DNA of 36,363 nt. Source: Telmatospirillum sp. GTDB lineage: Bacteria > Pseudomonadota > Alphaproteobacteria > Rhodospirillales > Magnetospirillaceae. The notes below the pieces were generated by a model, which searched no databases, had not been told where the DNA came from, and saw nothing but the letters and a program-made list of their open reading frames with translations. The DNA is taken from positions 1 through 36,363 of the forward strand of contig JARLJB010000246.1 in NCBI GenBank assembly GCA_031291415.1. The letters are read 5' to 3'. This document shows, piece after piece, positions 11,780 through 30,763 of the stretch. The translations under genes were made by a program, and so were the position numbers. The first letter of the stretch is position 1, and every line of letters begins with the position of its first letter.

Positions 11780-11845
11780 ATAATAATTTGACGATATGCT
11801 GCCCGTCAACAGGATAAAATTGTCATCTGCAGGTAAAATTTTGTC
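11780..11845 (-). promoter_or_regulatory. Promoter A with two 21-bp-spaced direct repeats (predicted GRM activator site)
   Basis: Read on the minus strand: GACAAAATTTTACC (11845-11832), then GACAATTTTATCC (11824-11812), starting exactly 21 bp apart. These are followed by a -35 box TTGACG (11809-11804), an 18-bp spacer and a -10 box TATTAT (11785-11780). The proximal repeat abuts the -35 box, the arrangement of an activator that contacts RNA polymerase. The same architecture occurs at promoter B. The likely binder, by inference, is the AraC-type response regulator encoded at 14.5-15.5 kb. It drives the GlcG/PduO-C and facilitator genes with a leader of about 100 bases. Confidence 0.75.
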
Positions 11846-11940
11846 TTGTTGGAAGTCTTCTGATCAGTTCAGAGGATTAGAACATGGCGTACCGGTCTGG
11901 TTTAGCCATCCACATACTATATGTCGCGGAATGAATGTTT

Positions 11941-12079
11941 CACCACAGAGACACGGAGGACACAGAGATAAGGAAGAAGGCGCCGCAAGCATTGTTTTTT
12001 TGGCCAAACACCTTCCGGTACGACGGCAAAAATGCCTGCAGCGGCACACTGCCTCCGTGTCCTCCGTGTCTCTGTGGTG
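11941..12079. repeat. Long palindromic repeat with CACAGAGACACGGAGG arms
   Basis: The 19-bp arm at 11941-11959 is perfectly complementary to 12061-12079. Pairing continues imperfectly on both sides (TGTTT/TGTTC outside, ACACAGAG/ACACGGAG inside). The loop is about 100 bp. Within each arm the ACACnGAGG unit is nearly repeated in tandem. Arms of this type (CCACAGAGACACAGAGG) recur as dispersed repeats in many unrelated bacterial genomes. It lies beyond the 3' end of the PduT gene and before promoter A, so it could also act as a transcription barrier. Apart from this element and promoter A, bases 11674-12156 hold no gene that I can support. Confidence 0.75.
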
Positions 12080-12156
12080 GAACAATATCTTGTATTTGTG
12101 TGTGCTAACCGGATAGGCACGGAACATGGTGGAATCAAATCTTATCATGCTCCAGA

Positions 12157-12714
12157 TCAGGCGATCTGGGAAAACACACTGTCGGCCGGACTGGGAATGA
12201 CGATCCTGCTGACCAACAGACCATGTTCGGCGGCTTCCGCGCTTCCCGCCGCCACCGCAGCCTGGCAGGCGGCGACGTCGCCGGTCATCAGAGCGTATCC
12301 CTTGCCGCCAAGACCAAGGGCGATCCGCACGTCCATAAGCTGGACATTGGCCGCCTTGACCGCCGCGTCGGCGGCCACCACGATGGAGACGGCGGAAAAG
12401 GTCTCGATGATGCCCAGAGCCTTGCGCCCGGCGGGACCGCTGGTCCCGGTCAGGGCCCGCACCACATCCTCGTGAATGTTGGAAATGACAAACCAGTCCA
12501 CCACCGTTTCCGGATGCTGCGCGCGCCCGGCACCGATGGATGCGGTCACAGCCGCCACCTCGCCGCTGACAGCGGCCACGAATTTGCCGGGACAGATGGT
12601 TTTGAAAAACACCGGTTCGACCTGGGCTGCTTTCACCATCTGGTCCGCCCCATCAATACCAGCGGCGATGCTGCTGAATTCCACCATTCCAACGGCGGCG
12701 TATCTCTTTGGCAC
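12157..12714 (-). CDS. pduT: BMC-T shell protein, PduT-like, lacking the Fe-S cysteine
   Basis: This trimer-forming shell protein has two fused BMC domains (about residues 8-90 and 98-183). Its 185 residues match PduT (184). Conserved PduT segments are visible: KTICPGKF in the first domain and ETFSAV plus GLLVSRIVIPSP in the second. In Salmonella PduT a [4Fe-4S] cluster sits in the trimer pore, held by Cys134 in GGKCY. Here the same position (about residue 139) reads GGKGY, so the ligand is missing. The GTG start at 12714 follows AGGAG. It lies 66 bp after the PduS-like gene, its usual electron-transfer partner. Confidence 0.88.
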   Translation of the reverse strand: MPKRYAAVGMVEFSSIAAGIDGADQMVKAAQVEPVFFKTICPGKFVAAVSGEVAAVTASIGAGRAQHPETVVDWFVISNIHEDVVRALTGTSGPAGRKALGIIETFSAVSIVVAADAAVKAANVQLMDVRIALGLGGKGYALMTGDVAACQAAVAAGSAEAAEHGLLVSRIVIPSPADSVFSQIA

Positions 12715-29950: not shown

Positions 29951-30047
29951 GACATCCTCCCATGACATCTGACATCTGACATCCTCCTCATTAGAATTTT
30001 CGGGATCCTCCGTCGGCGGCCGCGATCGAGAGTGCCGGGGAGCCCTG

Positions 30048-30623
30048 TCAGTAAAGAACGCTCACGCCCAGCAGGCGGACGAAATCGCGTAGAATGGCCG
30101 GATGCCCCGGCCAGGCCGGTGACGTCGCCAAATTTCCATCGACGACGGAGTCCTCCGGTTTGACCTCGACATAGGTTCCACCGGCCATTTCAACCTCTGG
30201 CCGGACGGCCGGATATGCTGTCAACCGCCGGCCTCGCACCACATCGGCGGCGGTCAGGATCTGCACGCCATGGCAGATCGCCGCCACTGGCAGAGACCGC
30301 CCCATGAAATAGCGCGTGAGATGCAGAACGCTGGCGTCCAGCCGCAGATATTCCGGCGCTCGGCCGCCCGTCAGATAGAGCCCCGCGTAGTTATCCAGAT
30401 CGACATCCGCGAACGAAGCAGTCAGCCGGAACAGATGTCCCGGTTTTTCCGTGTAGGTCTGATCGCCCTCGAAATCGTGGATGGCTGTCTTAAGGAAATC
30501 TCCGGCCTTTTTACCGGGACAGACCACATCGACTTGCAATCCAAGCATTCCCAGCGCCTGATACGGAACTATTACTTCATAGTCTTCCGAAAAATCACCC
30601 GCCAGCATCAGGATCTGCTTCAT
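30048..30623 (-). CDS. DJ-1/PfpI family protein, first gene of the GRM operon
   Basis: This 191-residue protein is a single class I glutamine-amidotransferase-like domain of the DJ-1/PfpI family. The nucleophile elbow AAICHG places the cysteine at residue 117, and the conserved acidic residue is Glu16 in DYE. Family members include proteases, glyoxalase III-type and deglycase-type enzymes acting on reactive aldehydes, and stress proteins. It is first behind promoter B, 97 bp before the dehydratase. Scavenging reactive aldehyde such as methylglyoxal, or protecting proteins from leaked propionaldehyde, would fit, but this is inference. I know of no firm assignment of this family to microcompartments. 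Confidence 0.85.
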
Positions 30624-30667
30624 GGCCGGCCCGTTTCCTTATTATTTCTCTTATAAGCTTATTACAA

Positions 30668-30763
30668 ATAGTAACCGCTATGTATATTGTCGGTCAATAA
30701 GACAGAATTGTCCTTTATTGGTAAAATATTGTCATGACCGCCATGAATTGGTAAAAATTTGTC
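30668..30763 (-). promoter_or_regulatory. Promoter B with direct repeats on a 21-bp grid (main GRM operon)
   Basis: Read on the minus strand: GACAAATTTTTACC (30763-30750), GACAATATTTTACC (30733-30720) and GACAATTCTGTC (30712-30701). The last two start 21 bp apart; the first lies 30 bp further out. The -35 box TTGACC (30697-30692), an 18-bp spacer and a -10 TACTAT (30673-30668) follow. The distance from proximal repeat to -35 box and the spacer length are identical to promoter A. A weaker GACAATATAC at 30691 continues the 21-bp grid into the spacer. The leader to the DJ-1/PfpI start is about 40 bases. Control by the PocR kinase/AraC regulator pair is inferred. Confidence 0.78.

Follow-up and report, generated by a model that had tools for sequence, protein, structure and literature searches.

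The window analysed here, one whole contig (C54) of 36,363 bp from a Telmatospirillum sp. assembly of 7.14 Mb and 412 contigs, carries a glycyl radical enzyme microcompartment locus of type 3 (GRM3) on its minus strand between 30.7 and 12.2 kb, as judged from Pfam and NCBIfam scans of the window proteins. Promoter B at the head of this organelle locus and promoter A, which precedes a pduO-like and a channel gene, share one compact operator-promoter unit. We describe the sequence architecture of this unit, its conservation in related loci, its genome-wide specificity and its co-occurrence with an AraC-type response regulator encoded in the locus. On the last three grounds a common regulator of both promoters, as the original prediction had proposed, is strongly supported, and the units are very probably bound by the two-component regulator that the locus itself encodes, which would switch both promoters on.

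In both promoters a 14-bp half-site, 7 bp, a second 14-bp half-site and 1 bp are followed by a TTGAC -35 box, an 18-bp spacer and a TAnTAT -10 box, and half-site 2 starts exactly 21 bp after half-site 1 (Table 1). The predicted coordinates, the 21-bp spacing, the spacer and the -10 boxes proved exact to the base, and the additional copy expected 30 bp further upstream at promoter B is present. Read on the plus strand, the distance of 15 bases to the -35 box is correct for the proximal copy. The claim of shared direct repeats stood for the distal copies, which match GACAAWWTTTTACC, but not in full for the proximal ones, which are loose. The exact half-site occurs three times in the assembly, always in the window; allowing one mismatch added four single copies, against two matches of the reversed pattern. 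Promoters A and B are 93% identical in half-site 1, 79% in half-site 2 and 83% in the -35 box, and 28% in the 60 bp upstream.

Relatives came from a homology scan with the aldehyde dehydrogenase, in which the best 80 of 160 loci included 11 that are alphaproteobacterial by name. Their gene order is largely that of the window, and a related block is seen upstream of the first gene. The most divergent is Pleomorphomonas (L032), with the regulator gene upstream of the glycyl radical enzyme (GRE) gene and no DJ-1 or kinase match on the contig. Because the consensus drifts, GACAAWWTTTTACC as a search motif gave only matches with two mismatches in the 11 loci, and matrices were used instead: a first one of 42 bp from ten alphaproteobacterial GRE promoters picked by eye, and a second one from 21 sites of relatives, including divergent and off-locus units that had been located by matrix or pattern. 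The window was excluded from both. On both strands of the window, the first matrix scored nothing but A and B above 0, and with the second the next position after these two reached -4.3. The best scores in the 69 non-alphaproteobacterial loci were 13.5 with the first matrix and, over 1.32 Mb, 10.6 with the second, while downstream stretches of ten relatives gave the first matrix nothing above 6 except 8.1 in L119. The same matrix found an opposite-facing unit, which had not been part of its training, in nine relatives; over the mapped loci this divergent unit lies 263-340 bp upstream of the GRE unit. Altogether 35 units were collected, and the unit is kept at GRM3 promoters in 18 genomes; a unit at the Cohaesibacter GRE promoter was excluded from the 35.

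All 35 units have C3, A4, A5, C13 and C14 in half-site 1, G22, A25, A26 and C33 in half-site 2 and the TTG of the -35 box in common. The half-site core is an imperfect repeat, GNCAA-n4-TTACC / GNCAA-n5-TC, and the -10 TA follows an 18-bp spacer in 26 and a 17-bp spacer in three of the 35. Comparison of 16 promoter pairs from the same genome (window included) gave identities of 71% for half-site 1, 67% for half-site 2, 81% for the -35 box and 44% for the -10 box, compared with 24-33% for the upstream flank, the two spacers and the downstream sequence. For 98 cross-genus pairs of GRE promoters the half-sites and the -35 box reached 70, 69 and 72%, compared with 29-42% elsewhere. Because these elements are conserved and the flanks and spacers are not, selection acts on operator and promoter elements in a fixed register. 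AraC-family sites are classically laid out as two direct repeats some 21 bp from each other, of which the proximal one is next to the -35 box. All 35 units show this class II arrangement in one register, the proximal half-site abutting the -35 box. A box of the OmpR/PhoB type, which has an 11-bp period, is incompatible with the 21-bp register and was discarded.

At up to three mismatches the pattern of the unit matched 18 times in 12 GRM genomes, 17 times within GRM loci, and its reversed version not once; Pleomorphomonas had no match at this threshold. The pattern misses some real units at three mismatches, namely that of G069, both of G366 and one of two in several genomes. The lone off-locus match lies in Cohaesibacter, before pduS-pduT-like genes recognised by eye. 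Across a further 294 genomes from the family to which G062 belongs, taken regardless of any GRM3 locus, we counted four matches, all with three mismatches, and six of the reversed pattern; 60 host relatives at ranks from genus to order gave one match with three mismatches and one reversed match. The original prediction had named two outcomes that would speak against it, occurrence of the motif at many unrelated genes and lack of conservation in related loci, and both checks came out in its favour: the unit is at background in the 294 genomes, exact copies of the half-site in the assembly are confined to the locus, and related loci keep the unit. Nor does the unit have the spread over many unrelated operons of a RegA- or FNR-type site. 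By this distribution it defines a predicted regulon, which takes in the off-locus pduS-pduT-like genes of Cohaesibacter.

Among the locus products scanned in Pfam, the response regulator alone has a DNA-binding domain. It has the build of a YesN-like AraC/XylS response regulator, with a receiver (Response_reg, E 9.3e-27) and a C-terminal AraC double helix-turn-helix (HTH; HTH_18, E 4.5e-20; HTH_AraC, E 3e-15), and the DI.IP motif at the phosphoacceptor Asp and the LLKP motif are conserved in 16 aligned sequences, window included. The NCBIfam PocR model (NF047788) matched the regulator at positions 189-292 (91.5 bits) and the PocR-domain histidine kinase encoded next to it at positions 5-196 (116.4 bits), both below the cut-off of 500. 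PocR domain and AraC HTH thus lie on separate proteins and not, as in a one-component PocR, on one polypeptide, and kinase and regulator together appear to keep the PocR module order, split in two. No clear membrane segment was found in the kinase; its hydropathy has a single borderline peak, 1.75 at residue 47. The identity profile of the regulator was dropped as additional support, since the HTH is not singled out (mean identity to 15 orthologues 58%, against 60% for the receiver and 31% for the linker).

Co-occurrence of unit and regulator was followed in two genera, around G067 (18 genomes) and around G062 (16 genomes), a full regulator being called at E below 1e-50; the genomes within both genera are related, so that the cases are not independent. 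The unit is present in 10 of 10 genomes with a full regulator, in nine by pattern and in G366, for both of its units, by matrix. None of the 24 other genomes gave a match to the pattern, which misses some real units; the matrix check among these 24 covered the fetched stretch of G379. The AraC-type response regulator is, on this evidence, the best candidate for binder and activator at the units.

Binding, phosphorylation, activation, the inducer and the extent of the operons are what we infer from these sequence data, and the switch might work as follows. The PocR domain of the kinase would sense 1,2-propanediol, as this type of domain suggests, and the kinase would phosphorylate the response regulator. 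A regulator dimer would then occupy the two directly oriented 14-bp half-sites, two helical turns apart, with the two HTH motifs of each subunit reading GNCAA and TTACC/TC. The promoter-proximal subunit, abutting the TTGAC -35 box, would recruit RNA polymerase by class II activation to a presumably weak promoter whose spacer is long, at 18 bp. Promoter B is predicted to drive the organelle operon including the regulator itself, which would amount to positive feedback, and promoter A the pduO-like gene and the MIP channel.

A global redox or oxygen regulator of the RegA/ActR or FNR type, or another factor encoded elsewhere, might bind the repeats instead, with the response regulator acting otherwise. 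Glycyl radical enzymes are oxygen-sensitive, and in the Breoghania genome G071 units stand without a regulator orthologue that could be found. RegA, moreover, acts strongly on the GRM cluster of R. capsulatus in vivo, repressing it 76- to 250-fold in rich medium (PMC5359404). Sites of a global regulator, however, are to be expected in GRM-free genomes too, and the unit does not rise above background in the 294 genomes of one family, gave no pattern match in any of the 24 genomes of two genera that lack the full regulator, and belongs to a locus with a single DNA-binding product among those scanned. Being no commoner than background in genomes at large, the unit hardly qualifies as a RegA site, and for its specificity a RegA-type or other global site was rejected as the principal explanation; we consider this alternative improbable. 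The repression by RegA speaks for other inputs, and a redox layer would have to be added to activation by the locus's own regulator. The likeness of A and B could also have remained from a duplicated promoter or from shared transfer and mean nothing for regulation: the locus may have come as a block, given that the regulator has no good match in the 60 host relatives, and the copy 30 bp upstream of B resembles a local duplication. What A and B share, however, is mainly the operator, the -35 and the -10 box, and the same contrast returns in the 16 same-genome and the 98 cross-genus pairs, the 7-bp spacer of the latter being 42% identical. The divergent 60 bp upstream rule out a simple duplication of a block or promoter, and the broader reading as a leftover of either process appears largely refuted and very improbable.

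The regulator may in addition, or alternatively, repress or loop. All 16 relatives that have a divergent promoter carry a further half-site in direct orientation, at a distance of 102-117 bp upstream from half-site 1, and seven of them add an inverted partner 20-21 bp beyond it. Scores at this level (above 8) come at 0.126 per kb in a mostly coding control; the distal half-site perhaps invites a looping or bridging model. Without inducer the regulator would bridge the proximal unit and the distal half-site, at about -110 in relatives and at -30 in the window, and phosphorylation would shift it to the tandem site, in an ara-like manner. The distal spacing varies over 15 bp, however, so no single helical phase is kept, and no distal half-site was found within 420 bp of promoter A, of the Cohaesibacter pduS-pduT promoter or in Pleomorphomonas; the window has, in place of a distal half-site near -110, the copy just 30 bp away. 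Such a layer would be compatible with activation from the tandem site, but we regard it as a tentative and rather doubtful addition. As an observation in its own right, two 28-nt copies with 30-bp spacing (TCTMTCGYAATTTAGAA...GTCAATTT) were seen upstream of promoter B at 30836-30893; we take them to recall insertion-sequence end repeats, and they are perhaps a scar where relatives carry the distal operator.

Besides the repression by RegA, several observations count against the assignment of the units to the locus's own regulator. The proximal half-site of promoter B has five mismatches to the motif of the original prediction. The Cohaesibacter unit at the GRE promoter lacks 1 bp, and its scores of 6.9 and 0.8 with the two matrices fall within the range of the controls: 8 of the 69 non-alphaproteobacterial loci exceed 6.9, with the maxima given above. 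Pleomorphomonas (G069) has a single unit, picked by eye and missed at three mismatches, a regulator of 39% identity and no clear kinase orthologue (best E 3.9e-20, in the PocR part only). The 24 unit-free genomes were tested by a pattern that can miss real units, and one of them, G379, encodes a protein related to the regulator's DNA-binding half (E 3e-35) with no GRM gene or unit in 26 kb of its 42-kb contig. Breoghania G071 has two units, and no regulator orthologue was found in its assembly (best E 4.3e-11). Because its contig ends inside the kinase gene, and the opposite end of a kinase gene lies on another contig, the regulator was probably lost in an assembly gap. The window itself is a single contig of a 412-contig assembly, and mis-binning is possible. 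The Breoghania and Pleomorphomonas cases lowered our confidence slightly, and binding by the locus's own regulator still appears very probable.

The divergent promoters of the relatives lead to a further candidate member of the regulon. Behind the divergent unit a membrane protein of 303-313 residues is encoded in nine of the nine loci examined, next to an acetate kinase gene in seven of them; in the other two the stretch ends or other genes follow. With later genomes included, the divergent unit was seen in 16 loci, the membrane-protein gene standing beside 15 and the 16th stretch being too short. The protein, of about 303 residues with seven hydropathy peaks, is 69-89% identical between its first representative and six relatives, and matched nothing in Pfam or NCBIfam and nothing usable in the PDB. 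It was found in the three other GRM genomes searched with it, whereas four genomes without the regulator gave no match, and neither did the host assembly nor Pleomorphomonas, whose loci each contain a MIP gene. We propose it as a candidate 1,2-propanediol channel. In 10 of the 11 relatives, L032 being the exception, a PduO/HbpS-like match immediately precedes the aldehyde dehydrogenase gene. In most relatives pduO belongs to the main operon, and the second unit is followed by the membrane-protein gene. The window has pduO and the MIP channel there instead, and its two units are 19 kb apart. It is an attractive reading that one predicted 1,2-propanediol channel was replaced by another under the same operator. 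More far-reaching, and in our view unlikely as a whole, would be an alphaproteobacterial propanediol organelle regulon that rests entirely, for linked and unlinked genes alike, on one phosphorylation-driven, ara-like split-PocR switch, whose regulator moves between a loop to the conserved half-site near -110 and the tandem site at the -35 box and so coordinates two divergent promoters, with the protein of about 303 residues as propanediol channel and MIP replacing it in the window.

Promoter B is followed first by the gene of a DJ-1/PfpI protein and then by genes that would be transcribed as a single unit and encode the GRE, an Fe-alcohol dehydrogenase, bacterial microcompartment (BMC) shell proteins, PduL, a EutJ-like actin-fold protein, a flavoprotein, EutN, the aldehyde dehydrogenase, a radical-SAM activase, MetK, the kinase, the regulator and RnfC/PduS-like and PduT-like proteins. 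GRE, activase and shell genes are the core of GRM3 loci, and all are in the window; of the ancillary set, Pfam found peptidase, flavoprotein, EutJ homolog (assigned by actin-fold matches alone), SAM synthetase, two-component pair and DUF336 protein. This agrees with the published ancillary gene list except for acetate kinase (Axen et al., 2014; PMC4207490), for which a tblastn search of the window alone with the L118 protein gave no match. GRM3 enzymes are described as 1,2-propanediol dehydratases (PMC6325248), as the locus context predicts for the GRE of the window. As no good match to the regulator was found in the 60 host relatives (best E 3.5e-17), the locus was probably acquired or mis-binned. 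Between the PduT-like gene and promoter A, at 11936-12084, lies an inverted repeat with 32-nt arms, 94% complementary and 85 nt apart; its arm pattern matches seven times in the assembly, five of them on three other contigs, and it looks like a dispersed repeat element. Elsewhere on the contig, at 2873-8575, phosphoketolase-, fructose-bisphosphate aldolase- and transketolase-like genes, recognised by eye, stand in a row.

Table 1. Features of the operator-promoter units, the GRM3 locus and relatives named in the text.
Feature	Location	Strand	Basis or remark
Promoter A, complete unit (14-7-14-1-TTGACG-18-TATTAT)	11780..11845	-	matrix score 28.7 (ten-site), 35.4 (21-site)
Promoter A, half-site 1 GACAAAATTTTACC	11832..11845	-	0 mismatches to the predicted motif
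Promoter A, half-site 2 (proximal) GACAATTTTATCCT	11811..11824	-	3 mismatches
Promoter A, -35 box TTGACG	11809-11804	-	
Promoter A, -10 box TATTAT	11785-11780	-	
Promoter B, complete unit (14-7-14-1-TTGACC-18-TACTAT)	30668..30733	-	matrix score 21.6 (ten-site), 36.9 (21-site)
Promoter B, half-site 1 GACAATATTTTACC	30720..30733	-	motif search
Promoter B, half-site 2 (proximal) GACAATTCTGTCTT	30699..30712	-	5 mismatches to the predicted motif, hand count
Promoter B, -35 box TTGACC	30697-30692	-	
Promoter B, -10 box TACTAT	30673-30668	-	
Extra half-site GACAAATTTTTACC, 30 bp upstream of B half-site 1	30750..30763	-	within 20-nt repeat at 30-bp spacing
DJ-1/PfpI-family gene, first behind promoter B	30048..30623	-	Pfam; ATG 45 bp past -10 end
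GRM3 genes behind promoter B	12157..29968	-	Pfam, NCBIfam, synteny with relatives
Glycyl radical enzyme, PFL-like	27404..29968	-	Pfam; syntenic homologs in 11 loci 74-79% identical
PocR-domain histidine kinase, proposed 1,2-propanediol sensor	15564..16877	-	Pfam
AraC-type response regulator (receiver + AraC HTH), proposed binder	14492..15622	-	Pfam
RnfC/PduS-like gene	12781-14118	-	
PduT-like gene	12157-12750	-	
PduO/HbpS-like gene, first behind promoter A	11068..11673	-	Pfam; ATG 107 bp past -10 end
MIP-family channel, second gene behind promoter A	10295..11023	-	Pfam, NCBIfam
Membrane-protein gene, divergent side of GRM3 loci	L118 678-1589 and relatives		alignment A1
Cohaesibacter off-locus unit, L148	G061:C30:84628-84668	-	pattern match; contig different from that of the GRM locus
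Relative of regulator DNA-binding half, L178	G379:C21:4198-4584		46-48% identical
PocR-kinase-like gene ends, Breoghania G071	G071:C7:132923-133015 and G071:C6:147744-147986 (L193)		

The unit offers a sequence-specific handle on the switching-on of a B12-independent organelle and a compact promoter design that is probably responsive to 1,2-propanediol. It also points to regulon members that could not be recognised from position alone, such as the Cohaesibacter pduS-pduT-like genes and the channel candidate without a family.

In layout the unit comes close to araI1-araI2 of Escherichia coli, where AraC binds direct half-sites about 21 bp apart as a class II activator, with the proximal site next to the -35 box, two HTH contacts per half-site and a distant site for looping; here, in contrast, the signal would come through phosphorylation of the receiver and not through a sugar-binding domain. 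Action of RegA on the R. capsulatus cluster concerns the same kind of organelle, likewise in an alphaproteobacterium and with strong regulation, but RegA is a global redox regulator, and the accessible text does not mention the operator of the window (PMC5359404). The 1,2-propanediol GRM of Clostridium ljungdahlii also comes with a kinase and a response regulator gene of its own. Several of its GRM genes rise by a log2 of about 9 to 10.5 with 1,2-propanediol, and a promoter inducible by this compound was tested; the organism, however, is a Firmicute, the change in its kinase and regulator genes is slight (2.6 and 0.8, with large errors), and no operator is given in the accessible text (PMC12016505). 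In PDU1D loci and the 1,3-propanediol operon of Clostridium butyricum, a PocR-domain kinase and its partner regulator stand beside diol genes as in the window, again with no operator described in the text available, and PocR-domain regulators are also reported for some GRM3 loci (PMC4207490). Organelle regulation of this kind is already known, while this operator was not found described in the accessible open-licence PMC literature. A functional parallel is PocR of Salmonella, a one-component AraC-family activator of pdu and cob, which responds to 1,2-propanediol and likewise brings a PocR domain and an AraC HTH to 1,2-propanediol genes. Its two boxes at Pcob, of 20 and 48 bp and 52 bp apart, are unlike the tandem unit (PMC11264322). 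In the window the same modules lie on separate proteins, joined by kinase and receiver, which suggests that a kinase and its partner regulator can stand in for the one-component PocR.

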